Source: Propionivibrio dicarboxylicus
Lineage (GTDB): Bacteria; Pseudomonadota; Gammaproteobacteria; Burkholderiales; Rhodocyclaceae
DNA: 64,000 bases
Assembly (NCBI RefSeq): GCF_900099695.1
Contig: NZ_FNCY01000007.1
Span: 124,001-188,000, forward strand
Direction of reading: 5' to 3'
Below are positions 4,782 to 64,000 of this stretch, piece by piece; positions within the stretch are counted from its first letter, which is position 1; each line of letters opens with the position of its first letter. The notes under the pieces are model-generated. The model was given only the letters and a program-made list of their open reading frames with translations. It was not told the origin of the DNA and did not search any database. The translations under genes and the position numbers were made by a program.

Positions 4782-7034
4782 ATGAAGACAGAATGCCCGA
4801 TGACATCTGCCGCCACGCTCAGGAAAACGCTGCCGGCAGTGCTGATCTCCGCCGCGCTCGCCGGCCTGCCGCTCGCCGCCAATGCGGGAATCATGCGCAA
4901 CTATGACGAGGAACTCGCCGTCTCGGTCAAGCACGTGCGCGACGGAGTGCTCAAGCAGGCGGTCACCCATCTCGAGAAGAACAACGAGGACAACGACAAG
5001 GACATCCTTTACTTCTTCGAGAAAGGCGAACTCTTCAGCCTCGGCAACAATTACCTGGCCAGCCGCGACATCTGGATGAAGGGCGACGAGATCATCCAGG
5101 CCTGGGAAAACGAATTTCGCACCAACCCTTCGAAACTCTTCGGTGACATCGGCAGCTATCTCATCAGCGACAAGACGCGCCGCTATGACGGTCAGGATTA
5201 TGAAAAGGTGATGCTGTCGACGCGGCTGACCCTGACCCACATCATGCTCGGTCACTTCGACAACGCGCGCATCGAGATGAAGAAGACCTACGAGCGCGAA
5301 AAATTGATCGAGTCGTTCCGGGAAAAGGAATACGACGCGCTTGCCGCCGAAAACGAAAAGGAAGGCAACGGCGAGATCAAGAAGCTCGACGGCTACCCGA
5401 TGGCCGAAATCGACACCCCGGAAGTGCGCGAACTCAAGAACGGTTTCCAGAACGCTTTCGCCCACTACCTCGCCGGCTATTTCTTCGAGGTCACCAACGA
5501 GTCCTCGCTCGCCGAACCGGGCTACCGCAACGCGCTGCAACTCGCGCCGAACAGCCGGATGATCCTTAGGGCGCTCGAAAACATCGGCCGCGAACCGCTG
5601 CCGGAAGGCCAGTCCGAAGTGCTCTTCGTCATCGAAACCGGCTTTGCGCCGAGCATCGATTCGCTCAACATCCCGATTCCAATCCCGCGCAAGCGCGGCA
5701 CCATCGTCACGCCACTGTCCTTCCCGGTGGTCACATCCTCGCCCAAGGTCCTGGTGCCGCCGACGATCAAACTCGTCGACCAGGCGCTGCCGGTGGAGAC
5801 GCTGACCAACATCGACACCATGGCGCGACGCATGATCCGCGACCAGATGCCCGGCACCATCCTGCGCACCGTCATCCGCGCCGGCTTCAAGTCGCTGGTG
5901 CAGGACCAGGCGGAAAAGGCGCACTGGCTGGCCGGGCTGATCGCCAAGGTCGCTTCGGTCGCCACCGAGCAGGCCGACGACCGCAACTGGCGCATGCTGC
6001 CCGAACGCATCTCGATCGCCCGTGGCCGCCTGCCACACGGCCGCCGCAGCATCGAGTTCCAGACCAACGCCGGCAGCTATCGCACCGAAGTCGACATCGC
6101 CGGCGCGTTCACCATCGTTCCGATCCGCCTCACCGGCGGCGCCGTCTATGTCGGCTTGGCGCAACGCGCGCCGCAGGGCGCCAACGCGCTCGCCGAACTG
6201 ACCGTGCAGCCCTCCGGCGAAGGCCTCGCCGAACCGGTCGCCAGCGCCGCGCCAAGCCCGGCCGCTGCCGCCAGCGTACCGCTGACGCTGCTGCGGGCAT
6301 CGCCTTCATCAACCCCGACCGCCACGGCACCGACCCGCGCGCCGGCCCCCGGAGCGGAACCGACGCCGGCCACCGATACCGCTCCTCCCACGCCTCCCGC
6401 TCCCGCCGCAATCCAGACGGCCAGTGCCGGCACGTACAGCATCGCGCCCACCGCCGCACCGACGGCCGCCGCGCTCGGCAAGCGTGTCTCCGTCGGCGAC
6501 ACCACCTACATCGGCGATTTCCGCTTCGAGCAACCAAGCGGCCTGCCGGCCGGGCAGGGCCGCGTCGAATGGCGCAACGGCGACAGCTACGAAGGCACGC
6601 TGGCTGGCGGCCTGCGCACCGGCAAGGGCAGCTTCGTCAGCAAGGACGGCGGCTTCCGCTACGAGGGCGACTGGCGCGACAACGCCCAGAACGGGCGCGG
6701 CAAGACCACCTTCGACGACGGCGACGTCTATGAAGGCGACATGGTCGGCGGCCTTTTCCATGGCCAGGGCACCTACCGGTCGAAGGACGGCTGGCGCTAC
6801 GAGGGCGAATGGAAGAACGGTGTCAAGGACGGCCAGGGACGGCTCACCTATGCCGACGGCGGTCGCTGGGAAGGCCGCTTCGCCGAGGACCGGCAAACCG
6901 CCGATGGCCAGATGATCTTCAACACGACGCCGGTCGCCGAGGCCCGCCCGGCCGAGACGCCGACGGCCGCGCCCAAGGCAGCGCCTGAAGCGGCGAGCGC
7001 GCCGGCACAGGAAGAGGACGACGAGGACGAATGA
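4782..7034 (+). CDS. Secreted COG3014-like protein with C-terminal MORN repeats
   Basis: The function is unknown. Residues 1-35 form a signal peptide that appears to be cleaved after ANA. The COG3014 proteins I recall are lipoproteins with a Cys near this place, but no lipobox Cys is seen here, so the product is probably soluble in the periplasm. Residues of about 36-470 resemble the COG3014 family and include helical, TPR-like stretches. A Pro/Ala/Thr-rich linker follows (about 485-560). After it come MORN-type repeats starting near residues 574, 602, 626, 649, 672 and 695, with a spacing of 23-24 residues and a YEGDW/GxG pattern. The protein ends in an acidic EEDDEDE tail. The start is fixed by GGGAGG five to seven bases upstream. 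It is monocistronic and convergent with the next gene. Confidence 0.75.
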   Translation: MKTECPMTSAATLRKTLPAVLISAALAGLPLAANAGIMRNYDEELAVSVKHVRDGVLKQAVTHLEKNNEDNDKDILYFFEKGELFSLGNNYLASRDIWMKGDEIIQAWENEFRTNPSKLFGDIGSYLISDKTRRYDGQDYEKVMLSTRLTLTHIMLGHFDNARIEMKKTYEREKLIESFREKEYDALAAENEKEGNGEIKKLDGYPMAEIDTPEVRELKNGFQNAFAHYLAGYFFEVTNESSLAEPGYRNALQLAPNSRMILRALENIGREPLPEGQSEVLFVIETGFAPSIDSLNIPIPIPRKRGTIVTPLSFPVVTSSPKVLVPPTIKLVDQALPVETLTNIDTMARRMIRDQMPGTILRTVIRAGFKSLVQDQAEKAHWLAGLIAKVASVATEQADDRNWRMLPERISIARGRLPHGRRSIEFQTNAGSYRTEVDIAGAFTIVPIRLTGGAVYVGLAQRAPQGANALAELTVQPSGEGLAEPVASAAPSPAAAASVPLTLLRASPSSTPTATAPTRAPAPGAEPTPATDTAPPTPPAPAAIQTASAGTYSIAPTAAPTAAALGKRVSVGDTTYIGDFRFEQPSGLPAGQGRVEWRNGDSYEGTLAGGLRTGKGSFVSKDGGFRYEGDWRDNAQNGRGKTTFDDGDVYEGDMVGGLFHGQGTYRSKDGWRYEGEWKNGVKDGQGRLTYADGGRWEGRFAEDRQTADGQMIFNTTPVAEARPAETPTAAPKAAPEAASAPAQEEDDEDE

Positions 7035-8531: not shown

Positions 8532-10040
8532 ATGCCGGCGCCCGCCATGACCTTCGACACCGCCCTCCCGCTCTATCGTTCCGCCGATCTGCGCCATATC
8601 GAAAGCGCGGCCGCCGACCAGAAGCTCATGCAGCGCGCCGGACGCGCCGCCGCTGACTGGGCGAGCCAACTGTGCGACAACGGTGGCGCCATCCTCGTCC
8701 TCGCCGGCCCCGGCAATAACGGCGGCGACGCCTTCGACGCGGCACGGCGGTTGCGCGCCGCTTTCTTCGACGTCGAACTCGTCTTTCCCGGCGACCCCGA
8801 GCGCCTGCCGGCCGACGCCGCAGCCGCCTGCAAGCACTTCCTCGCCGAGGGCGGCCGCATCCGTCACGCCATTTCGCCGCAACGGCACTGGTCCTTGATC
8901 ATCGACGGCCTGTTCGGCATCGGCCTCACCCGCGACATCACCGGCCCCTATGCCGGGCTCATCGACAGCGCCAATGCTCTCGCCGACCGCGACGGCTGCC
9001 CGCTGCTGGCACTCGATTGCCCGAGCGGACTCGACGCCGATACTGGCGTCGTGCGCGGCGCCGTCATCCGCGCCAGTCACACGCTGAGCTTCATCGCCGC
9101 CAAACCGGGGCTGTTCACCGGCGACGGCCCCGATTGCTGCGGCAACTGCCGTGTCGCCGCGCTCGACCTCGACGCCGAGGCGATCGCCCCGGCGGCCGGA
9201 CGCCTCGTCGGCATCGACGCCTTCGCCGCACACCTCAGGCCGCGCCGGCGCAACAGCCACAAAGGCAGCTACGGCAATGCCGGCATCCTCGGCGGCGCCC
9301 CCGGCATGACCGGCGCCGCCCTGCTCGCCGCCCGCGCCGCCTTGCGCCTGGGCAGCGGCCGCGTGTACGTCGCGCTGCTCGACGCGCAGGCACCGGCGCT
9401 CGACCCCTGCCAGCCCGAACTGATGCTGCGCCGGCCCGACGCGCTCCATGACGCCGCAATGAGCGCGCTGGCCTGCGGCCCCGGCCTCGGCACCTCGATC
9501 GCCGCAAAGGAACAATTGGTCGCGGCCTTGCGCCAGGACATCCCGCTCGTACTCGATGCCGATGCGCTGAACCTGCTCGCCCGTGAATGCGATCTGCCGG
9601 TCGCCGTCGCCCTGCGCCAGGCGCCGACACTGCTGACGCCGCACCCGGCCGAAGCCGCGCGCCTGCTCGAACGCAGCGTCGAGGCGATCCAGTCCGACCG
9701 CATCGGCGCCGCCCAGGAAATCGCCGAGCGCTTCAACGCCCTCGTCGCCCTCAAGGGCTGCGGCACCGTCCTGGCACATCCCGACGGACAGTGGCGGATC
9801 AATGCCAACGGCAATCCCGGACTGGCTACCGCCGGCAGCGGCGACGTGCTGACCGGCATCATCGTCGCCCTGTTGGCGCAGGGATGGGACGCCGACGCGG
9901 CGCTGGCCGGCGGCGTGCATCTGCACGGCGCCGCGGCGGATCGGCTCGTGGACGAAGGCCTCGGCCCGGTCGGGCTGACCGCCGGCGAATTGATCGACAG
10001 CGCCCGCTACTGCCTGAACGACTGGATCGGCCGGGCTTGA
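8532..10040 (+). CDS. nnr: Bifunctional NAD(P)H-hydrate epimerase / ADP-dependent dehydratase
   Basis: It repairs damaged NAD(P)HX: the N-terminal half epimerises it and the C-terminal half dehydrates it back to NAD(P)H using ADP. The epimerase half (about 1-215) has the GPGNNGGDAF motif and DCPSGLD. The dehydratase half (about 225-500) has KGSYGNAGILGG, TPHPAEAARLL and the phosphate-binding NPGLATAGSGDVLTG. At about 502 residues it matches the fused bacterial form. The frame is open up to 8460, but family proteins start close to the LYRSADLRHIE stretch, so I chose the ATG at 8532. No strong ribosome site is visible. It is divergent from the receiver-kinase gene. Confidence 0.93.
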   Translation: MPAPAMTFDTALPLYRSADLRHIESAAADQKLMQRAGRAAADWASQLCDNGGAILVLAGPGNNGGDAFDAARRLRAAFFDVELVFPGDPERLPADAAAACKHFLAEGGRIRHAISPQRHWSLIIDGLFGIGLTRDITGPYAGLIDSANALADRDGCPLLALDCPSGLDADTGVVRGAVIRASHTLSFIAAKPGLFTGDGPDCCGNCRVAALDLDAEAIAPAAGRLVGIDAFAAHLRPRRRNSHKGSYGNAGILGGAPGMTGAALLAARAALRLGSGRVYVALLDAQAPALDPCQPELMLRRPDALHDAAMSALACGPGLGTSIAAKEQLVAALRQDIPLVLDADALNLLARECDLPVAVALRQAPTLLTPHPAEAARLLERSVEAIQSDRIGAAQEIAERFNALVALKGCGTVLAHPDGQWRINANGNPGLATAGSGDVLTGIIVALLAQGWDADAALAGGVHLHGAAADRLVDEGLGPVGLTAGELIDSARYCLNDWIGRA

Positions 10041-10057: not shown

Positions 10058-12268
10058 TCAGTTCTCGCGCAGCAGCGTCAGCTCCTGGTCTGAATGACGC
10101 AGGCGTAAGGCCAGTGTGCGCGCCAGCTGGGAGATGAGCAGGAGCGCGATGCGTTTGTGCTCCTCGGCGAGGACGTCGAACTTCTCCATGCTGAGCACAT
10201 AGAGTTCGGCATCGGCGGAGACGACGGCGCTATTGCCGCGCGGCCGGTGATCGAGGAAGGCGAGGCCGCCGAAGAACTCGCCGCGCCCGTAGGTGGCGAT
10301 GTGATGCAACTGCACGTCGGTGCCGACACGCCCCATGATCCTGACCTCGCCGCTGCGCACCAGATAGAGATTGCAATCCATATCGCCGACGTCATAGACG
10401 ACGTCGCCGGTCTTGCACGAGCGCGCTTCGAGACAGGTCGCGAGATCGATCAAGGTATCCGGCTTGCTGCCCTTGAACAGGCCGATCTCGTGAAGTTCCA
10501 GGGGCGGCAGCGTCGCGTCGGCCTTGCCGACGTCGCCGAGGATGCGCTCCTCGACCCACTCGATCGCCGCTTCGAGCGAGGGCATGAACAGCACTTTCTC
10601 GCCATCCGGTACCAGTCCGGCAAGTTCGAGGAATTCGCGCAGATTGCGGCCGTTCGGCAACATCTCGCGCACGCTCGACAGGATCAGCGGCACTTTGCGT
10701 TCGGACAGGATGTCGCGCACCAGACTCAGCATGTGCGCCGCGGTCAGATCGACCGATTGCACGCGCTGCAGGTCGAGGATCAGGTAATGCGTCGTCGACA
10801 GCTCCGGCTCCAGGCGCAGATAGAGCTGGTGCGTCGTGCCGAAGAACAGGCTGCCCTGCAGCTCGAAGATGACGGCGGTATCGCCGAACTGTTCGAGGCG
10901 CTGCATCTCGGCGTCGGGGCGGTACCAGGTCGAGGAGCGCTGGCCGACGACGCTCTTGCGACGGACGACGTTGCCGCCGACCTGTTCGCGCAGGAAGAGG
11001 ATGATCGACAGCACGACGCCGACCGCCGACGCGGCGATCAGGCCGATGAACAAGGCCGAGGCGACGACCGCCAGCACCACCGAGAAGTCGAGTACGGTCG
11101 AACGCGATTCGAGGAAGCGCAAGGGATCGGTATCGATCATGCGCATGCCGACGACGAGCAGCACGCCGGCCAGTGCGGCGATCGGAATCCAGGCGACGAA
11201 GGCGCCGAGCACGAGGCCGACGACCGCCACGGTGACGCCCTCGACGATGCCGGACATCCGCGTTTGCGCCCCGCTGGAGAGGTTGACGAGGGTCGCGCCC
11301 ATGGTGCCGGCGCCCGGCATGCCGCCGATCGTCGAGGCCACCGCGTTGGCGAAGCCCTGCGCCGCCAGTTCGCGGTTCGGTTCATGGCGCGTCCGCGTCA
11401 TCTGGTCGAGGATGACGCAGGTCTTGAGCGTGTCGATCGAGAGCAGCGCCGCCAGCGTGATGGCGCTGCCGATCAGTCCGCCTACCTGCGACAGGCGCAT
11501 CTCGCCGATGTCATTCCAGCGGTTGGTGATGAGATCGATGTAGCCGGCGCCGTTGGCACCGAGTTCACCGACGACGAGTTCATTGCCCTCGAGCACGCGC
11601 ATCGACGGATCGAGCGCGGCGAGGCTGCCATAGGTGACCGCCCCGGCGACGATGCCGATGATCGTGCCGGGCACCGTCTTGACGAAACGCCGCGAGAGCA
11701 GCATCGCGGCGGCCGTCACACCACCGATCGCGAGTCCGCGCAGGTCCCACAATTCCGGCTTGATCAGCGCCTGGTACCACAAGGTGCCTTCGGGCGCGCC
11801 GGCGAATTTCGGCAACTGACTGCCGATGATGATCAGGCCGACGCCGCTCAGGTAGCCGCTGACGACCGGATACGGGATGTACTTGATCAGCCCGCCGATG
11901 CCGACGAAGCCGATCAGCATCTGGATGAGCCCGGTGAGAATGCCGAGTACGGTCATCAGCAAGACGATGGTGACCGGTGTCGTGCCCTGACCAACGAGTT
12001 GGATGGCGAACGCGGAAAGCACTGCCGCCGCCGGCGCGCAGGGCGCCGAGATCAGCCGGTCGGTGCCGCCGAAAACCGGCGCCAGCAGGCCGAGCGCGGT
12101 CGCGCCGAGGATGCCGGCGAGCGCCCCGAAAGCGGCATAGTGCGGATTGATCGCCGCATAGACGGTGACACCGAAGGCGACCGACGCCGGCAATGCAACC
12201 AGCATCGCCGCGAAGCCGCCCCAGAAGTCGCCCGAATGACGCATCCATGTTCCGGAAAATTCGCGCAT
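10058..12268 (-). CDS. SulP-family anion transporter with STAS and cyclic-nucleotide-binding domains
   Basis: This is an inner-membrane SLC26/SulP carrier, likely for sulfate, bicarbonate or another anion. Residues of about 10-410 hold many hydrophobic segments typical of the family. A STAS domain follows (about 435-560), and then a cyclic-nucleotide-binding domain with its GEFFGGLAFLDHRPR phosphate-binding cassette (about 610-725). The added CNB domain suggests that transport is gated by a nucleotide or that the domain is structural; this is inference. The ATG at 12268 has AGGGGAG upstream, so the longer open frame to 12367 is not used. It is the last gene of the minus-strand series that begins with glpD, 22 bases after the Na/Pi gene. 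Confidence 0.88.
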   Translation of the reverse strand: MREFSGTWMRHSGDFWGGFAAMLVALPASVAFGVTVYAAINPHYAAFGALAGILGATALGLLAPVFGGTDRLISAPCAPAAAVLSAFAIQLVGQGTTPVTIVLLMTVLGILTGLIQMLIGFVGIGGLIKYIPYPVVSGYLSGVGLIIIGSQLPKFAGAPEGTLWYQALIKPELWDLRGLAIGGVTAAAMLLSRRFVKTVPGTIIGIVAGAVTYGSLAALDPSMRVLEGNELVVGELGANGAGYIDLITNRWNDIGEMRLSQVGGLIGSAITLAALLSIDTLKTCVILDQMTRTRHEPNRELAAQGFANAVASTIGGMPGAGTMGATLVNLSSGAQTRMSGIVEGVTVAVVGLVLGAFVAWIPIAALAGVLLVVGMRMIDTDPLRFLESRSTVLDFSVVLAVVASALFIGLIAASAVGVVLSIILFLREQVGGNVVRRKSVVGQRSSTWYRPDAEMQRLEQFGDTAVIFELQGSLFFGTTHQLYLRLEPELSTTHYLILDLQRVQSVDLTAAHMLSLVRDILSERKVPLILSSVREMLPNGRNLREFLELAGLVPDGEKVLFMPSLEAAIEWVEERILGDVGKADATLPPLELHEIGLFKGSKPDTLIDLATCLEARSCKTGDVVYDVGDMDCNLYLVRSGEVRIMGRVGTDVQLHHIATYGRGEFFGGLAFLDHRPRGNSAVVSADAELYVLSMEKFDVLAEEHKRIALLLISQLARTLALRLRHSDQELTLLREN

Positions 12269-12290
12269 GACGCTCCCCTGGAAGTCGTGA

Positions 12291-13979
12291 TTATTCTGGA
12301 TTTGTTGCCAGTTTTTCTTCCTCGGTACGCCCGGGCGAATCGCTCTCGGGCAATACATCATAGCCAATGCTCGAAATCTGCGTGCTGATCCAGCGCAGGT
12401 CCGAAATCAGGTCGAGATGCGCCGAACTGCTGCTCATCGCATCGGAATGGCCCTGGCTCAGGCGGCCGATATGACGCCGCGAACTGTCATGGCACATGCC
12501 TTTCATGTCGCGCTTGCGCTGCACCAGCAGGTTCGCCGTATCCGGATGCCAGGCCATGATCACCTCGGCCGAAAGTTGTGTCGTTCCAATGAGAAAGCGG
12601 AACAGGCGCTCAAGTTCCGTCTTGCCCTCGTCGGAAAACTGCTTGCCCGATTTTTTCATCGACTCGGGAATGCGCAGCATCGTCTTGCAAATGACATCGC
12701 CGGCATTTTCCAGGTTGGCCGTGTAGCGCAAGAGCGCGGTGACGCGGCGCTGCTCGGTTTCGTCGAGCCCCTTGCGCGTCAACGCGACAGCATAGGCGCG
12801 CACCGCCTTGAACAGCGTGTTGACCTTCTCCTCCATGCGCAGGATGTCCTCGGCGCGCTCGTGCTTGCCGGCGATCAGCATGTCGAGCGCCGCTTCGAGC
12901 ATGTTCTGGATCGTGCCGAGGATGCGCAGGATCTCGCGCGTCAAAGCCAGCACCGGGAAGGCTGCCACATCGCCGCAGTCCTCGCCGGCGTTCGGGATGT
13001 ACCGGGGCCCGATCGTGCTGACCGGCTTGTCGGCAGTGATGAAAAATCGCTCCATGAAGCGCGCCAGCGCATCGACGCGCCACGAGAAAACGGCGATCAG
13101 CATCAGGTTGAAGAGGATGTGCAGCACCACCACGCGGAAGCCGGCAAGTCCCGGCAATACGGCGTAGAGCCGGTCGATCAGGTGCAGCGCGACGAAGCAG
13201 GCGAAAACGCCGGCGAGCTTGATGATGGCATGGCCGACGACGATCCGCCGTGACGGCGCCGCCTGGTTCATGCTCATGACGATCGGCGGGATGGCGTTGC
13301 CGACGTTGATACCGAGGATCGCCGCGACGATCAGCGCCGCATTGTCGGTGATCCCCGCCTGTACCAGCGAGGCCCAGAACAGCAGGATGGCGATCGACGA
13401 ATGCGCCAGCCAGGTCAGCAGCGCGAACAGCAGCAGCGCGATCAGCAACTCGTCGCCAAGCGAGGAAACGACGATGCGCACCAACTCGCTGTTGGCCAGC
13501 GCCGATGACACCTGACTCATGAAGGTCAGGGCGATCAGCACCATGGCGATGCCGAGCAGGATGCGGCCGTACTGCTTGGCCGGCGAATCGCTTTCGGCAT
13601 AGATCGAATGCAGCAGGTAGCCGACGAACATCAGCACAGGCCACATCGCCTTGAGATTCAGGGTCAGGAGCGCGGCGACGACGGCACTGCCGGCATCGGC
13701 ACCGAGCATCAGCACCAGCCCGTCGGCGACCGGGATGACGCCAAGCGCGGCCAGGGTCGAGGAAAACACGGCGACGGCGATCGAACTCTGCAAGATCGTC
13801 GCCGACCCGGCGCCGGCCAGCAGGGCGACGAGCCGGTTCTTCAGCGTGCGCGGCAGGATCTCGCGGATTTCGGCACCGTAGGCGCGCATGACGCCGGTAC
13901 GCGCCATGCGCACGCCCCAGAGCATCAGCGTCGCAGCGCCGAGGATCATCGTCAGCTCATAGGTGCCCGATTCAACCAT
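12291..13979 (-). CDS. Na/Pi cotransporter family protein with PhoU-like tail
   Basis: This is an inner-membrane sodium-phosphate transporter of the NptA/YjbB type, about 562 residues. It has the two family repeats with GAGSATILQSS near the N-terminus and NVGNAIPPIV in the second half. A soluble helical PhoU-like C-terminal domain runs from about residue 350. Bacterial YjbB-type members export phosphate when it is in excess. The start at 13979 follows AGAGG by about 10 bases, and the frame upstream to 14102 overlaps the phosphatase gene. It lies 13 bases after that gene. A HAD phosphatase beside a phosphate carrier suggests that phosphate released inside the cell is moved out; this is inference. 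Confidence 0.88.
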   Translation of the reverse strand: MVESGTYELTMILGAATLMLWGVRMARTGVMRAYGAEIREILPRTLKNRLVALLAGAGSATILQSSIAVAVFSSTLAALGVIPVADGLVLMLGADAGSAVVAALLTLNLKAMWPVLMFVGYLLHSIYAESDSPAKQYGRILLGIAMVLIALTFMSQVSSALANSELVRIVVSSLGDELLIALLLFALLTWLAHSSIAILLFWASLVQAGITDNAALIVAAILGINVGNAIPPIVMSMNQAAPSRRIVVGHAIIKLAGVFACFVALHLIDRLYAVLPGLAGFRVVVLHILFNLMLIAVFSWRVDALARFMERFFITADKPVSTIGPRYIPNAGEDCGDVAAFPVLALTREILRILGTIQNMLEAALDMLIAGKHERAEDILRMEEKVNTLFKAVRAYAVALTRKGLDETEQRRVTALLRYTANLENAGDVICKTMLRIPESMKKSGKQFSDEGKTELERLFRFLIGTTQLSAEVIMAWHPDTANLLVQRKRDMKGMCHDSSRRHIGRLSQGHSDAMSSSSAHLDLISDLRWISTQISSIGYDVLPESDSPGRTEEEKLATNPE

Positions 13980-13992
13980 GGACGACCGACCT

Positions 13993-14763
13993 CTAAAGAT
14001 TGCCCAGGTGGTCGACGACCAGCGTCGGCTGCCTTTCCAGGCCCGGCAGATCCTCGCGCTTCGCTTCGCCCGAGAGCACCAGAATGAAATCGATGCCGGC
14101 ATTCTCGGCCAGCACCTTGTCGGTCATCAGCCGGTCGCCGACCATGACCATGTCTTCCTGCCGGAAGCGCTTGAGCAACGGCGACAGGACGATGGTATTG
14201 GGCTTGCCGAAGACAAGTTCGGGCAGGCGGCCGGTCGCCGCCTCGTAGAGTTTGACGAAGCTGCCGGTATCGGGCAGCGGTCCCTGCGCCGACGGACAGA
14301 CGAGGTCGGGGTGCGTGGACAGGAAGCGCACGTCGGGCCGTTGCAGCAGGAGGCACGAAGTCGCGAGTTTTTCGTAGGTCAGTTCGGTGTCATAGCCAAG
14401 GACAACGGCCTGACAGCTGGCATCGGCGGTGAAGACGAGTCCCGGCACGCGCTGGCGCAGATAGGCCTGGAAGCTCGTGTTGCCAACGGGATAAATCCGG
14501 GTCAGCCCGTGCTCGATCAGGTAATCGGCGAGCGGCAGCAGCGGCGACAGGATGCGCTCGACCGGCACCTCGGCAAGACCGACGCTGGCGAGCTTCTTCG
14601 TGTAATCGGAAAGATTCTTCGAGGTGTTGTTGGTAAGGAAGAAGATCTCCTTCTTCCCCCAATTGCGCCGGATGTAGTCGATGGTGCCCAGGATGGGAAC
14701 GTCACCGAGGTAGACGGTCCCATCCAGGTCAAAGACGACGCATGTTTTGCGGTCGAGATCCAC
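13993..14763 (-). CDS. HAD-IIA family phosphatase (NagD / glycerol-phosphate phosphatase type)
   Basis: This is a cytoplasmic phosphatase of 256 residues. Motif I is VFDLDGTVY, with the nucleophile and acid Asp near residues 11 and 13. Motif II lies in FLTNNTSKN, and motif IV in VMVGDRLMTD near residue 205. The cap domain is of the C2a type found in NagD, AraL, phosphoglycolate and glycerol-3-phosphate phosphatases. The substrate cannot be read from sequence. The start is a GTG directly after the dctM stop codon, so translation is probably coupled. Its position between a TRAP transporter and a phosphate carrier points to dephosphorylation of an imported or derived organophosphate. Confidence 0.88.
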   Translation of the reverse strand: MDLDRKTCVVFDLDGTVYLGDVPILGTIDYIRRNWGKKEIFFLTNNTSKNLSDYTKKLASVGLAEVPVERILSPLLPLADYLIEHGLTRIYPVGNTSFQAYLRQRVPGLVFTADASCQAVVLGYDTELTYEKLATSCLLLQRPDVRFLSTHPDLVCPSAQGPLPDTGSFVKLYEAATGRLPELVFGKPNTIVLSPLLKRFRQEDMVMVGDRLMTDKVLAENAGIDFILVLSGEAKREDLPGLERQPTLVVDHLGNL

Positions 14764-16041
14764 TTACATCAACCACTTGAGCGGCACGAGCGAGAGCTTC
14801 GGGAAGAGCAGCAGCAGGAACAGCACTGCGATTTCCATCAGCAGGAAGGGCGCCAGCTTGCGCACCAGATGCCCCATCGAAATCCCGGCCGAACCGCAGA
14901 CGACGAACAGCACCGTGCCGACCGGCGGCGTGATGACGCCGATACCGACGTTAAGCACGAAGAGCAGGCCGAAGAAGTACGGATCGATACCCGCGGCATT
15001 GGTGAGCGGATAGAACACCGGCGCGAACAGCAGGATGTTCGGCGTCAGGTCCATGACGCAGCCGGCGGCGAACAGGAAGATCATGATCGCGATCAGGAGC
15101 AGCGTCGGCGTCGGCACCAGCGGCTCGAAGAAGGCCTTCATCTGGTCGGGGATCTGCGCCGCGGTGATGAACCAGCCGACCGCCGTGGCCGCACCGACGA
15201 TCAGCATGACCACCGCCGTGCTGCGTGCGGCCGTCGCGCTGACGCGCAGCAGGTCGCGCAGCGACAGTTCGCGGTAGTACATCGTCGTTACAGCGATCGC
15301 ATAAACCGCAGCGAAGGCACCACCCTCGGTCGGCGTAAACACGCCGCCGCGGATACCACCGAGCAGCAAGACCGGCAGCATGAAGGCCGGCGTCGCTTCC
15401 TTGAGGATGTTGATCGCTTGTTCGCGCGTGAAGACGATCGTCTCGGTGTAGCCGTCGATCCGCACGATGAAGAACCACATGAGCAAAAGGAAGAAACCGA
15501 TGATCAGGCCCGGTACCAGACCGATCATGAAGAGCTTGGTGATCGACAGCTCCATCGTCGCGCCGAGCAGGATGAAGTTCGCCGACGGCGGGATGATCGG
15601 ACCGAGGATCGCCCCGGCGGAAATGATGCCGCCGGCACGCCCCTTGTCATACCCCGCATCCTTCATCATCGGGTAGAGGATGCCCATCAGCGCTGCCGCT
15701 TCGCCGACCGAACTGCCCATCAGGCCGGCGAAGATGACCGCCGCAATGATCGTCGCGTAACCGAGGCCGCCCTTGACGCGACCGATCATCAGTTGCGCGA
15801 GCAGGATGACGCGCTTCGACAGACCGCCGCGCGCCATGATCTCACCGGCGAAGACGAAGAACGGGATGGCCATTAGCGGGTAGTTGTTGACACCATCGAC
15901 CATCGCCTGCGGAATGATCATGAAGTCGCCGTCGCCCGAGTAGACCATCAGGACGATCGCCGACAGCACCATCACCAACGCAATCGGAATATTGAGGAAG
16001 AGGAAGAAAAAGAGGCTTCCGAGGAATACGAGTAATTCCAT
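14764..16041 (-). CDS. dctM: TRAP transporter large permease subunit
   Basis: This is the DctM-type 12-helix channel subunit that carries substrate and sodium across the inner membrane. At 425 residues it has the usual length, with repeated hydrophobic segments and the conserved GxxMGSSVGEAAALMGI and GPIIPPS stretches. Its start lies two bases from the dctQ stop, so the two membrane subunits are translated together. The substrate depends on DctP. The HAD phosphatase gene follows with no gap, an unusual extension of a TRAP operon. Confidence 0.95.
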   Translation of the reverse strand: MELLVFLGSLFFFLFLNIPIALVMVLSAIVLMVYSGDGDFMIIPQAMVDGVNNYPLMAIPFFVFAGEIMARGGLSKRVILLAQLMIGRVKGGLGYATIIAAVIFAGLMGSSVGEAAALMGILYPMMKDAGYDKGRAGGIISAGAILGPIIPPSANFILLGATMELSITKLFMIGLVPGLIIGFFLLLMWFFIVRIDGYTETIVFTREQAINILKEATPAFMLPVLLLGGIRGGVFTPTEGGAFAAVYAIAVTTMYYRELSLRDLLRVSATAARSTAVVMLIVGAATAVGWFITAAQIPDQMKAFFEPLVPTPTLLLIAIMIFLFAAGCVMDLTPNILLFAPVFYPLTNAAGIDPYFFGLLFVLNVGIGVITPPVGTVLFVVCGSAGISMGHLVRKLAPFLLMEIAVLFLLLLFPKLSLVPLKWLM

Positions 16042-16043
16042 GA

Positions 16044-16565
16044 TCAGAACTCCTTCGGAATGCGAACGAATTCACACGCGGGCTTCTTCAGCGTGTTCAG
16101 CAACTCACGCCCGCGAATGATGATGACCGCCAGGGCCATGGCTGGCAACGTGCCATTGACAAAGGCCATGTTGAGCCCGGTCGCCACCGTCGCCGTATCG
16201 ATCGTCTGCTCGACCAGTGAAATACCGCCGAGGAACAACAGCACCAGCGCCGCCAGCGCGAACAACTGAGCGACGACATCCACCGCTTTCTTCGTGATGC
16301 CCGTCAGCAAGCTCGTCACCATATCGACGGCGATATGACGGCCGCGATAGAAACCCTCGATCGAACCGAAGAAGGTGATGTAAATGAACAGGATGCGCGC
16401 CCATTCCTCGCTCGGCGCAAAACTCGCCTTGAATATATAGCGCAGCATGGCGTTCCAGAACACCAGGCCGATCATCGACAGAAAAATCACCGCACAGAAC
16501 ACCTGGAAGGCGATTTCCGCCTTGCTTTCGTTTTCCTGTGGTTTCTCCGGCATGAGCTCGCTCAT
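16044..16565 (-). CDS. dctQ: TRAP transporter small permease subunit
   Basis: This is the DctQ-type four-helix membrane subunit that pairs with DctM. At 173 residues it has four hydrophobic segments and the family pattern EEWARILFIYITFFGS. The N-terminal 20 residues are charged and cytoplasmic. It is separated from dctP by 174 bases that hold a strong hairpin, and it abuts dctM. Confidence 0.93.
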   Translation of the reverse strand: MSELMPEKPQENESKAEIAFQVFCAVIFLSMIGLVFWNAMLRYIFKASFAPSEEWARILFIYITFFGSIEGFYRGRHIAVDMVTSLLTGITKKAVDVVAQLFALAALVLLFLGGISLVEQTIDTATVATGLNMAFVNGTLPAMALAVIIIRGRELLNTLKKPACEFVRIPKEF

Positions 16566-16695
16566 CTTGCCGTCCCCTTCTCAAACAATTGACCCCATTT
16601 GGCCGCTGGCGGCGACCGCTCGATTATTTGCGCCACGCCGACCGCCTCCTGCGGCCAACACGCTGCGCCCCCCCAAATTGTCGTCTCGTCCCGCG

Positions 16696-16725
16696 GCACG
16701 GGGCCGTTCGTCGAACGCCCCGTGC
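16696..16725 (-). other. Stem-loop between dctP and dctQ
   Basis: The minus-strand RNA folds as GCACGGGGCGTTCG paired with CGAACGGCCCCGTGC, a 14-pair stem with one bulge and almost no loop. There is no T run after it, so it is not a classic terminator. A hairpin after the receptor gene can protect the upstream mRNA and let DctP be made in excess over the membrane subunits; that role is inference. The remainder of the 174-base gap shows nothing else. Confidence 0.6.
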
Positions 16726-16739
16726 GCAGGTATTGACGA

Positions 16740-17729
16740 TCACTTGTACTGTTTGACGCTTTCGAGAATTTCCTTGGCATTGGGCACGGTGTCGTAGAAC
16801 AGTTTCCACGTACCTTCGCCCGCCTTCTTCAGCGCAGCCTTGAATTCCGGCGACGGGTTGGTGATCTTGCCACCGCCCTTGTTGATCTCGTCGATCGCCT
16901 TCTTCTCGTTGTCAGCCGCCATCTTCCAGATATCCTCGGCCGAACGCTTGGCGGCGTCATCGAACACCTTGCGGTCTTCCGGCGGCAGCTTGTTGTAGAA
17001 GTCGTTATTGATATAGAGCGAGTGGATCACCAGGATGTGACCCGACAGCGTGATGTTCGGCGCGATCTCGTACATCTTCAGCGCGACGATATCGGAGAAG
17101 GGGCTGTCGCCACCGTCGATCGTGCCCTGGTCGAGCGCCGCCGGCACTTCGGCGAACGGCATCGGCTGGCCGCTCTGGCCGAGCTGCTTGGCGAACTCGA
17201 CATACAGCGGAATGTTAGGCACGCGCATGCGCAGGCCCTTGAGGTCATTCACGTTATTCACCGGTTTCTTGGTATAGAAATGACGGAAACCGAGCGGGAA
17301 AGCGTTCATCATCGTCAGGCCCGATTTTTCGGCGAAGCCTTTACTGATCAGCTTGAAGGTCTCGCCGTTCATCGCCTTGTGGGCATGATCGAGACTGTCA
17401 TACAGCATCGGCGTTTCCAGCATGGCCATGGCAGGGAAAATCGAGCCGGTCTGCGTGCCGGTGGCGCACATCTGGATGATGCCCTTGCGCGTCTGCGCGA
17501 TGTAGGCATCCTCCTTACCGAGTTGGCTGTTCGGGAACACGCGGACGTCGTACTTGCCCTTGGTTCCTTCCATGACGTATTTGGCGAACAGCTTCATGCC
17601 AACGGTTTCCGGCTCGCCATCCGGCTTCATGCCGGCGATTTTGACGATGATCTTGTCGGCAGCGAACGCGGGGGCCAAGGAGCCGCCCAGCAATGCCAAC
17701 AGGGAAAGAAGAAGAATCCTGCGTTTCAT
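16740..17729 (-). CDS. dctP: TRAP transporter solute-binding protein
   Basis: This is the periplasmic receptor of the DctPQM system. The ATG at 17729 has GGAGGG upstream and starts a signal peptide of about 22 residues ending AFA, which gives a protein of about 329 residues. The longer open frame to 17855 is not supported. The ligand-binding stretch LRMRVPNIPLYVE contains the Arg that in this family pairs with a carboxylate of the substrate, and FAEVPAALDQGTIDG is the usual neighbour motif. The ligand is not known. The gene follows glpD in the same direction after a 218-base gap in which I see no clear terminator. Confidence 0.93.
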   Translation of the reverse strand: MKRRILLLSLLALLGGSLAPAFAADKIIVKIAGMKPDGEPETVGMKLFAKYVMEGTKGKYDVRVFPNSQLGKEDAYIAQTRKGIIQMCATGTQTGSIFPAMAMLETPMLYDSLDHAHKAMNGETFKLISKGFAEKSGLTMMNAFPLGFRHFYTKKPVNNVNDLKGLRMRVPNIPLYVEFAKQLGQSGQPMPFAEVPAALDQGTIDGGDSPFSDIVALKMYEIAPNITLSGHILVIHSLYINNDFYNKLPPEDRKVFDDAAKRSAEDIWKMAADNEKKAIDEINKGGGKITNPSPEFKAALKKAGEGTWKLFYDTVPNAKEILESVKQYK

Positions 17730-17947
17730 AAACCCTCCGTCATTAATAGATTTTCCGCGTTGCCACACCCGAATGCCCGTCGCCGGCGAGTCCGGCGGCG
17801 AACCTGTCACAAACCCCACTCCTGCCTTCGCGCAACGCACATTAAAGCGCGTCAATCATACTCTCGGTCTTTGGCGAATAATGAAAATCGCCCAGCATTT
17901 TTTTCGCTTTCGCTCATTGACCGAGGCGCGTATCCGAAATGACGCAA

Positions 17948-19588
17948 CTATGCCTGTGTCCCCATCCCGCCGTGCCCTGCATCCGAGGCGAAATATTCCT
18001 CGTATTTCTCGCGCGCCTCGTCCCCGAACAGGATTTCGCAGGCCGCCATCAATCCCTCGGCATTGCGGATATCCTCGTGTCGCATGACGAGCGCGATCTT
18101 CGAGCGCCGGCGCAGGAAATCCTCGAGCTTGGTGACCATTTCCTGATGACGGATCAATTCGATTTCGCAGCGGATGTAGTCGGTCCCCTGAATCAGCACC
18201 TCGGCCTCGCGCGGGTCCTCGCGGATCAGCGCCAGCAGTTCGAGCGCCTGCTGGTCGTAGCGCCGCCACAAGCGCGTGCTCAGTGCTTCGATTGAGTTCG
18301 GCGAGGTATAGCTGTCGAGGTTCATCAGCCGCGCCTGGTGGAAGTACTCCTCGCGCACCGAGGTGTGCGGCTCGCCGTACCACTTGTAGTCCGGATAACG
18401 CATCGACACGCCCATGCCAGCGACCAGCGTGGAGATCTCGTTGCCGACGTTAACGCAATCGGTCAGTTTGCCGCCGAAAACGCTAATATGCGCAGTCTCT
18501 TGATTCGCATCGATTTCGTGCTTGCGCGACATCAGCAACCAGTCGCGCTCGCCGTTGCCGTTGCCCGAGCGTTTGACGACGAGGGGGCGGACGCCGCAAC
18601 GCTCGGCGATGATGTCGGCGGTGGTCAGCGGCTTCGCCAGGTTCAGGCGCTTGTTGATGTTGTCGAGCACAAACTGGCGATCTTCCTCGGTCACCTCGCT
18701 GTAGGGCGAATCGACCCGCGTGTCGGTGGTGCCGACACAGGTCCGCACCCCCATCGGGATGACGAAGAACAGACGTCCGTCGTCGGCGAAGAAGGTCAGG
18801 ATCCGGCGGTTCGGCGTCACCTGCGGCACGATCAGGTGAATCCCCTTGGAAAACACGTGTTGATGCTCGGTTTTCTCGCCGGTCAGTGCGTTGTGGTCGT
18901 CGACGAAAGGACCGGCGGCATTGATCAGCACCTTGGCGCGGATCTCGAACGATTCACCCGAAATCACGTCGCGGACGCGCGTGATCCAGCGCCCGTTCTC
19001 GCGGCGTGCCCCCTCGGACGCCACATAGTTGGCGGCGATGCAGCCCCGATCCATGGCAGCGCGGATGAACTGGAAGACGAAACGGGAATCGTTATCGTGC
19101 AGATAGGCGTCCGAGTATTCGAAGCCGCCGTAATAGTTGGCGGTGCTGACCACCGGCTCTTCCTGCTCGGTCGAGCGCCGGTTCAACAGACGCGGGACCT
19201 GCGTGAAACAATTGCCGAACAGCCAATAGACCCAGGTGCCGGCCCAGATGAACCAAGGCGGAAAGCGGAAGCCCTTTTCAATGGTCGTGAAGAAGCGGAT
19301 TTCCTGGATCCGCGAGGGAAAATTCTCGATCAGATGGTTGCGACTCTTGCACAGGCCACGCACGAGACCAAAGTCACGGCTCTCGAGATACTTGATCCCA
19401 CCCCAAGCCAAATTGCTCGACTGCTGACTGGTAAACCCGGCGAAATCGCGCTGGTCGATCAAGGCCACCTTGGCGCCCTTGCCGGACAGCGCCGCCGCCG
19501 AGACGGCACCGTTAATCCCGCCCCCGATCACCAGGACGTCGAAATCGCCCTGCCCGAGTTTCCGGATATTGCTCAGTCTGAGCTTCAT
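17948..19588 (-). CDS. glpD: FAD-dependent glycerol-3-phosphate dehydrogenase
   Basis: This is a membrane-associated flavoenzyme that oxidises glycerol-3-phosphate to dihydroxyacetone phosphate and feeds electrons to quinone. It has the FAD-binding motif GGGINGA at residues 22-28, SSNLAWGGIKYLE near 55, NAAGPFVDD, and GTTDTRVD, followed by a C-terminal helical GlpD domain. At 546 residues it is somewhat longer than E. coli GlpD (501). I chose the ATG at 19588; the frame is open to 19702 through the operator region, which is unlikely to be coding. No glpK, glpF or glpR is in view. Three palindromes like GlpR sites cover its promoter. Confidence 0.9.
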   Translation of the reverse strand: MKLRLSNIRKLGQGDFDVLVIGGGINGAVSAAALSGKGAKVALIDQRDFAGFTSQQSSNLAWGGIKYLESRDFGLVRGLCKSRNHLIENFPSRIQEIRFFTTIEKGFRFPPWFIWAGTWVYWLFGNCFTQVPRLLNRRSTEQEEPVVSTANYYGGFEYSDAYLHDNDSRFVFQFIRAAMDRGCIAANYVASEGARRENGRWITRVRDVISGESFEIRAKVLINAAGPFVDDHNALTGEKTEHQHVFSKGIHLIVPQVTPNRRILTFFADDGRLFFVIPMGVRTCVGTTDTRVDSPYSEVTEEDRQFVLDNINKRLNLAKPLTTADIIAERCGVRPLVVKRSGNGNGERDWLLMSRKHEIDANQETAHISVFGGKLTDCVNVGNEISTLVAGMGVSMRYPDYKWYGEPHTSVREEYFHQARLMNLDSYTSPNSIEALSTRLWRRYDQQALELLALIREDPREAEVLIQGTDYIRCEIELIRHQEMVTKLEDFLRRRSKIALVMRHEDIRNAEGLMAACEILFGDEAREKYEEYFASDAGHGGMGTQA

Positions 19589-19669: not shown

Positions 19670-19750
19670 ATGTTCGTTTACAAACATAATTGAGCGCGAC
19701 AATGTTTGTCAACGACAATTTCTGACAACGCCAAGTTCGTAGACAAACAT
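19670..19750 (-). promoter_or_regulatory. glpD promoter with three GlpR-like operators
   Basis: Three 18-base palindrome-like sites lie at 19670-19687 (ATGTTCGTTTACAAACAT), 19702-19719 and 19733-19750. Their starts are 32 and 31 bases apart, about three helical turns, so all would face the same side. The half site ATGTTCG agrees with the E. coli GlpR half-site as I recall it (WATKYTCGWW). On the minus strand a TTGACA (19707-19712) and a TATGTT (19683-19688), 18 bases apart, sit inside sites 2 and 1. A DeoR-type GlpR repressor binding here would block the promoter; the regulator gene itself is not in the window. Confidence 0.65.
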
Positions 19751-63603: not shown

Positions 63604-64000
63604 ATGAAGGCGTTTTCACTGAAAACGATGAGTAAAGTGCTGGTTGCAGCGGCAGGTTTGAGCCTCTGCGCCACGGCATTCGCGCAGCAGGTCGTCGGCA
63701 AGCTCGGACATTCGATGCCGCCGGAGCATCCGCAAGCCGTGGCCATGAACAAGTTCTCCGAACTCGTCGGCAAGTACACCGACAACCGTGTCAAGATCCA
63801 GGTCTTCCCGAGCGCCTCGCTCGGCAGCGACGACAAGATGCTGCAAGCGACGCAGGCCGGCACGCAGGAAATGTACTACGGCGCATTCGCCGCCATCGCC
63901 GGCAACGTCCGCGAACTCGGCATCTTCGACTTCCCCTTCCTCTTCCAGAACCACAAGGAAGTTGACGCCGTCATGTGGGGACGGATGGGCCAGAAGATCT
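63604..64000 (+). CDS. dctP: TRAP transporter solute-binding protein, N-terminal part
   Basis: This is the periplasmic receptor of a second TRAP system, cut by the window edge. AGGAGG before the ATG at 63604 is a strong ribosome site. A signal peptide of about 27 residues ends AFAQ, and the mature start VVGKLGHSMPPEHPQAVAM is typical of C4-dicarboxylate or hydroxyacid receptors. It lies 122 bases after the dehydrogenase and is probably in the same operon. Confidence 0.9.
   Translation, partial: MKAFSLKTMSKVLVAAAGLSLCATAFAQQVVGKLGHSMPPEHPQAVAMNKFSELVGKYTDNRVKIQVFPSASLGSDDKMLQATQAGTQEMYYGAFAAIAGNVRELGIFDFPFLFQNHKEVDAVMWGRMGQKI

Follow-up and report, generated by a model that had tools for sequence, protein, structure and literature searches.

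What does a tripartite ATP-independent periplasmic (TRAP) transporter import when its genes stand among those of a glycerol-3-phosphate (G3P) dehydrogenase, a phosphatase and two anion carriers? The question is raised by seven genes in a 64,000-nucleotide stretch of DNA from Propionivibrio dicarboxylicus (contig NZ_FNCY01000007.1, positions 124,001 to 188,000; hereafter the window). TRAP transporters are usually annotated as C4-dicarboxylate carriers. Our analysis indicates that the core of this block is probably a GlpR-controlled operon for the uptake and oxidation of sn-glycerol-3-phosphate. G3P as the substrate, GlpD as the first enzyme and control by GlpR are well supported by inference, and a phosphatase step and a phosphate-export step are each plausible only, about equally likely to hold or to fail. 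The genes are:

17948..19588, minus strand: glpD, encoding an atypical FAD-dependent glycerol-3-phosphate dehydrogenase (DAO and DAO_C of Pfam over cut-off)
16740..17729, minus strand: dctP, TRAP solute receptor, predicted G3P binder (best solved match 4nhb, 475.9 bits)
16044..16565, minus strand: dctQ, TRAP small permease (PF04290 over cut-off)
14764..16041, minus strand: dctM, TRAP large permease (PF06808 and TIGR00786 over cut-off)
13993..14763, minus strand: HAD-IIA phosphatase (HAD), putative glycerol phosphate activity (TIGR01460 over cut-off; linked to dctPQM, glpD or glpABC in many loci)
12291..13979, minus strand: Na/Pi-PhoU protein (Na/Pi), putative phosphate exporter (PF02690 and PF01895 over cut-off; resembles E. 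coli YjbB)
10058..12268, minus strand: SulP anion carrier with STAS and cNMP-binding domains (PF00916, PF01740 and PF00027 over cut-off)

The seven same-strand genes had been listed, with their families, in a first-pass annotation made from the sequence alone; all of these open reading frames were found, and the family names were confirmed by Pfam/NCBIfam. Read 5'->3', the order is glpD-dctP-dctQ-dctM-HAD-Na/Pi-SulP, and with the starts used here the successive gaps are 218 bp (glpD-dctP), 174 bp (dctP-dctQ), 2 bp (dctQ-dctM), 0 bp (dctM-HAD), 13 bp (HAD-Na/Pi) and 22 bp (Na/Pi-SulP), in agreement with the 0-13 bases given earlier for the spacing of dctM, the phosphatase and the Na/Pi gene. 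The dctM stop codon TAA is followed at the very next base by the GTG start of HAD, both genes lying in one frame. A dctM-HAD fusion was considered for three relatives in which HAD sits in open frames of 685, 681 and 706 amino acids (G010, G001 and G101, respectively) and was rejected, as the dctM and HAD frames differ there by match coordinates.

The receptor and its predicted ligand

Among solved structures, DctP is matched best and over its full length by 4nhb (475.9 bits, the next solved chain reaching 151.2 bits), to which it is 65% identical in the alignment and whose ligand we take to be the sn-3 isomer of glycerol phosphate. The 4nhb protein, Ddes_1525 of Desulfovibrio desulfuricans, is an orthologue from another phylum that shares with the window DctP the full-length match and the arginine pair for phosphate. 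According to passages of a 2024 paper, 4NHB and 4PFB hold glycerol phosphate, the phosphate of which sits between two conserved arginines and a domain-I lysine; the passages on 4NHB speak of 'glycerol phosphate' and specify no isomer (PMC11668362). Likewise, the TRAP ligands named in part of a review include glycerol-3-phosphate/diglycerol-phosphate (PMC5812351). The first-pass annotation, which knew of no TRAP system for glycerol phosphate, has to be amended on this point, since such receptors are described for 4NHB and 4PFB and, for diglycerol phosphate, 4N6K. FN1258 (4PFB) and Desal_0342 (4N6K) are other TRAP receptors close to the window system.

K35, R149 and R169 of DctP are invariant across 34 orthologues. 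The 4.53-Mb genome contains 51 DctP matches, two of which lie at contig ends with equal scores and may be one gene; of the 30 other DctPs compared among these matches, 28 retain R149 and all 30 retain R169, but none has a lysine at position 35. K35, which lies near the N-terminus, may be the domain-I lysine described for glycerol-phosphate TRAP receptors, and from its sequence DctP is predicted to bind G3P. The TRAP repertoire of this genome is very large, and a further DctP starts at about position 63703 and continues beyond the window end.

Gene order, importer exchange and GlpR-like operators

Conservation was surveyed in 99 genomes of relatives, own genome included, 28 of them from the same genus and some of them metagenome assemblies labelled Accumulibacter or Propionivibrio, among others. 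A DctP orthologue was found in 12 of the 99, all within the genus, and each of these 12 also has HAD at 74% identity or more. The dctM-HAD-Na/Pi adjacency, for which conservation in relatives had been put forward earlier as a check, proved to be kept: the order dctP-dctQ-dctM-HAD-Na/Pi-SulP holds in 12 of 12 DctP-bearing relatives up to the limits of the contigs (the block runs into a contig end in G001, G004, G014, G017, G025 and G027), and glpD immediately precedes dctP in 11, the contig of G004 starting too near dctP to tell. Conversely, 20 stretches at other TRAP loci of the same genome gave no match to the HAD, Na/Pi, SulP or GlpD of the window, nor to GlpA, GlpB, GlpC or GlpR. Because the order is kept in 12 relatives while these other TRAP stretches show no partner genes, the block goes beyond a chance arrangement.

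Three genus genomes (G018, G020 and G021) have HAD and no DctP match, and one of them shows an exchange of importers. In G021 (about 85% complete), a divergent glpR is followed by glpD-ugpB-ugpA-ugpE-ugpC-HAD-SulP, with scores above cut-off for UgpB (597.2; cut-off 411), UgpA (406; 335) and UgpC (508.1; 432), and with ugpE named from its position rather than from a score. No DctP orthologue was found in G021, and no Na/Pi in the 19.9-kb stretch that was the only part of this genome searched for it. UgpBAEC, the classical G3P importer of the ATP-binding cassette (ABC) type, therefore fills the TRAP slot of the operon and would do the same job, although TRAP systems are secondary transporters with a receptor of their own and belong to a family unrelated to UgpBAEC and GlpT. 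In G018, HAD directly follows glpD with no importer between them. Hence, within the genus, HAD stays with glpD whichever importer is present, and SulP keeps its position at the end of the block even after the importer swap.

Upstream of glpD, the window contains candidate sites for GlpR. The core of the GlpR operator, which we take to be ATGTTNGNNNNCGAACAT, occurs with zero mismatches upstream of E. coli glpD, and a scan of the window allowing up to two mismatches located it at three places only, all within 19670-19750 and upstream of the window glpD:

19670..19687, minus strand: GlpR-like operator, 0 mismatches to the assumed core
19702..19719, plus strand: GlpR-like operator, 2 mismatches
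19733..19750, minus strand: GlpR-like operator, 1 mismatch
19683..19712, minus strand: sigma-70-like promoter site, 10 of 12 positions, both hexamers overlapping GlpR-like operators

Counted strand by strand there are five matches against 1.06 expected, a number reached in 2 of 100 shuffles; the count is modest by itself, and it is the position upstream of glpD that carries weight. The perfect operator overlaps the -10-like hexamer, and the second operator the -35-like hexamer, of the best promoter-like match, the promoter scan (4 sites in the region against 2.3 expected) being weak alone. Of 13 distinct glpD loci in the genus, five have an upstream site with 0-1 mismatches as their best match; the best site has 3 mismatches at four loci, 4 at two and 5 at one, and the remaining locus is cut by a contig end. 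As for the regulator, a gene 72% identical to the GlpR-like protein of P. soli, itself slightly below the GlpR cut-off (321.7 of 331), sits behind glycerol kinase on contig C44 of the window genome, and GlpR of P. aeruginosa responds to G3P according to part of a study (PMC9765544).

The dehydrogenase is the only DAO_C match in the whole genome. When aligned with E. coli GlpD, it keeps the Arg/Lys of GVRPL, SRKHEID and GGKLT, the Tyr of KYLE and the His of GIHL, while the Arg of GGxRYLE is replaced by Lys; we take these named segments of the E. coli enzyme to be the source of its substrate-binding residues. The window GlpD is 96% identical to that of G026, the nearest relative, but only 27-29% identical to genus-type GlpDs and to E. 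coli GlpD, and a search of the window genome with a genus-type GlpD returned the window glpD itself as the nearest match (31%). Homologues of 55-73% identity occur in 10 other genomes among 369 sampled in the class, two of them with an internal stop. The nearest outside homologue (73%) adjoins a glycerol kinase gene (57%), and around three of four such outside regions none of the query genes was found. These sequences are most simply read as an in-place replacement of the genus GlpD by a GlpD of a different type in the window genome and in G026.

Related loci in other lineages

When named genomes were scanned with 12 aligned DctPs, the 4nhb chain included, 101 relatives were found and 80 loci kept. 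Of these loci, 64 (L066-L129) hold full or large DctP orthologues of at least 60% identity; about 10 of them repeat genus contigs of the 99-genome sample, so that the two sets overlap. One locus, L068, is from P. soli, which has the block. Two alphaproteobacterial loci (L075 and L078) carry glpR, dctPQM, HAD (71% and 66%) and Na/Pi (68% and 64%) in order, and a third (L076) carries glpR, dctPQM, a 1011-amino-acid protein and a distant Na/Pi protein (33%), with no HAD match in its genome. The 1011-amino-acid protein (L076:13165-16197, between dctM and Na/Pi) is also encoded beside G3P TRAP genes at L079:14116-17151 and L082:1-2046; it is 40% identical between the alphaproteobacterium and Desulfovibrio, and neither the L076 nor the L079 protein, each of about that length, had a Pfam match at E 1e-4.

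The HAD of Desulfovibrionaceae loci shows 50-59% identity, and the genes for GlpA, GlpB and GlpC are often adjacent; at L094, for instance, GlpA scores 661.5 (cut-off 552.8), GlpB 229.1 (174.15) and GlpC 383.9 in one model (278) and 265.5 in another (279.9). Compared with these Desulfovibrio-type systems, the window operon also carries Na/Pi and SulP, and has glpD in place of glpABC. In 53 loci the sequence includes dctM and continues for 900 bp or more past it; HAD lies within 200 bp of dctM in 24 of these (22 on the same strand, 2 on the opposite one) and anywhere in the stretch in 30, among them 11 of the 12 from Propionivibrio and alphaproteobacteria. Where both flanks reach 5 kb or more (29 loci), 23 loci carry at least one of glpA, glpB, glpC, glpD and glpR, 18 carry HAD, and 24 carry HAD or a glp gene. 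Furthermore, in 11 DctP-bearing Desulfovibrionaceae genomes whose HAD lies outside the dctP stretch (L184-L194), HAD adjoins glpABC in seven (L185-L188 and L191-L193) and lies 4.3 kb from glpA in one (L194), with no glp match nearby in three (L184, L189 and L190).

Receptor and phosphatase also tend to occur together. Among 119 genomes from the family of D. piger, searched at E up to 1e-90 for DctP and up to 1e-40 for HAD, 19 have DctP and 24 have HAD (both, 18; DctP only, 1; HAD only, 6; neither, 94), an association with a Fisher p of 2.6e-15, uncorrected for kinship. HAD is present in 29 of 32 DctP-bearing genomes searched directly. As a control, 13 loci with distant DctPs, some on short contigs, yielded a single weak match to SulP and none to HAD, Na/Pi or glp genes (L130-L145 minus L135, L136 and L141, which are contig-end fragments of likely true orthologues).

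Several observations weigh against an operon for G3P uptake and oxidation in which these genes act together. The 218- and 174-bp gaps may hold other promoters. The window GlpD falls below the curated NCBIfam GlpD models (247.5 of 360 and 222.9 of 352), as does the genus-type GlpD (319.6 of 360), and the GlpR proteins score 321.7, 317.6 and 277.6 against a cut-off of 331; moreover, the GlpR-like sites are weak, with at least 3 mismatches, in several genus loci. Outside the genus and the alphaproteobacteria, HAD is in the fetched stretch in just 19 of 41 loci, and the Desulfovibrionaceae loci show no linkage to Na/Pi or SulP. Some of the 23 glp-positive loci among the 29 have glpR alone, and five of the 29 (L087, L105, L112, L124 and L128) have neither HAD nor a glp gene. 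HAD itself is not confined to G3P contexts, as most HAD-only genomes lack a glp match: of the six sampled Desulfovibrionaceae genomes with HAD and without DctP, five have no glp match around HAD (L175-L178 and L181), and the sixth, a 3.1-kb contig (L183), has a glpR match alone. In the one annotated genome of these six, which lacks a window-type DctP, a close HAD homologue (69%) precedes phnD-, phnC- and permease-type genes (L176:8057-12048), a context that suggests a wider role for HAD with organophosphate or phosphonate importers. Against this stand the 4nhb relationship, the conserved order, the linkage to glpD, glpABC or glpR in three lineages, the ugpBAEC swap and the GlpR-like operators. 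These lead us to G3P uptake, and they back the glycerol phosphate uptake unit proposed in the first-pass annotation.

Phosphate balance and alternative substrates

In the proposed operon, DctP would bind G3P in the periplasm, the Na+-driven DctQM permease would import it, and GlpD would oxidise it to dihydroxyacetone phosphate, passing electrons to quinone. GlpT is a G3P:phosphate antiporter, which also exports phosphate; a TRAP transporter does not. Because a TRAP importer does not exchange G3P for phosphate, each G3P taken up would add one phosphate to the cell, and a phosphate exit would presumably be needed. HAD could then drain excess or misdirected glycerol phosphate to glycerol and phosphate as an overflow valve, and the YjbB-like Na/Pi-PhoU protein could release phosphate from the cell.

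The window HAD scores 123 bits against the HAD-IIA subfamily model TIGR01460 (cut-off 100.15). Its closest solved relative is the Thermotoga 4-nitrophenylphosphatase entry 1vjr (170.4 bits), and named G3P phosphatases score 69.1 and 58.5 against the window HAD. In parts of a study of P. aeruginosa, HAD-type G3P phosphatases are tied to relief of G3P stress (PMC9765544). PA0562 and PA3172 of that species are, like the window HAD, phosphatases of the HAD superfamily, a likeness at superfamily level; unlike the window HAD, they are not described as uptake-operon members in those parts of the study. The Na/Pi protein consists of a Na/Pi domain pair followed by PhoU and is alignable over its full length, PhoU part included, with YjbB of E. 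coli, a Na/Pi-PhoU protein of putative phosphate export function (28% identity, 553 columns). Overexpressed YjbB can export phosphate, according to part of a paper (PMC11850910), and the similarity of the window protein to YjbB would point in the same direction. E. coli yjbB, however, lies between metH and pepE rather than in a G3P operon. SulP remains below the curated cut-offs of both the BicA bicarbonate transporter (213.7 of 880) and the TIGR00815 sulfate permease (162.7 of 380.45).

These elements suggest, tentatively, a split antiporter, in which TRAP import of G3P and phosphate exit through Na/Pi-PhoU, encoded in one operon, replace GlpT, with the phosphatase as overflow valve and constant core and with exchangeable importer and dehydrogenase slots; we hold this to be possible but somewhat less probable than its opposite. 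The importer slot is occupied by TRAP or UgpBAEC, and the dehydrogenase slot by two unlike GlpD types or, in Desulfovibrionaceae, by GlpABC. What lowers our confidence is that HAD is also found at sites apart from glp genes and that Na/Pi was sought in only 19.9 kb of G021.

The pairing of a phosphatase with a dehydrogenase that needs the phosphate would be explained if the transporter instead took up one or more G3P-like compounds on which GlpD cannot act directly (glycerol-1-phosphate, glycerol-2-phosphate or a glycerophosphodiester); HAD would convert these to glycerol and phosphate, and glycerol kinase would remake sn-G3P for GlpD. Glycerol kinase is present in the genome, the consulted passages on 4NHB name no isomer, and diglycerol phosphate is a known TRAP ligand; but sn-G3P itself is favoured by the UgpBAEC swap and by control through GlpR, and HAD follows glpD in G018 without any importer, so that we regard such a substrate as unlikely. 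UgpBAEC also accepts glycerophosphodiesters, which softens the argument from the swap. Considerably less probable is phosphorus scavenging, in which the compound would be imported for the phosphate freed by HAD, and Na/Pi and SulP would take up further phosphate and anions: the phn-type ABC genes beside HAD in L176, the membership of ugp in the phosphate-starvation response of enterics, and the importers among Na/Pi family members would fit, but the GlpR-like operators and the linkage to glp dehydrogenases mark use for carbon and energy, and the likeness of Na/Pi to YjbB spans the whole protein. Scarcely credible is an ordinary TRAP transporter for dicarboxylates or sugar acids with unrelated neighbours: DctP does have the two arginines typical of carboxylate-binding TRAP receptors, and DctM and DctQ match the YiaN and YiaM models, though both below cut-off, but the conserved block, the glp linkage, the ugpBAEC swap and the 4nhb relationship all speak otherwise.

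For the G3P operon, neighbourhood, operators and a natural importer swap together give a likely substrate for one TRAP receptor gene among the roughly 50 in this genome, and the same likely substrate extends to orthologues in Desulfovibrionaceae, several of them from rumen or gut by record name, and in some alphaproteobacteria. G3P is a common product of membrane-lipid breakdown, and the operon raises a testable question: how do cells that import organophosphates without phosphate exchange dispose of the phosphate, and does HAD-IIA act as a safety valve for G3P? TRAP receptors for glycerol phosphate are already known. To the extent of the search made, what is new is the interpretation at operon level, the exchange of occupants in the importer and dehydrogenase slots and the idea of splitting G3P entry from phosphate exit: in literature on TRAP or Propionivibrio with glycerol-3-phosphate, on glpABC with TRAP and on Ddes_1525, no title or abstract opening describes the operon, although the 2015 study of 4NHB may discuss its neighbours.

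The block is flanked upstream of glpD by purF and downstream of SulP by a convergent NAD(P)H-hydrate repair gene ending at 10040. Elsewhere in the window, positions 4782-7034 encode a 750-amino-acid protein that has MORN repeats at its C-terminal end and a long stretch rich in proline and alanine.

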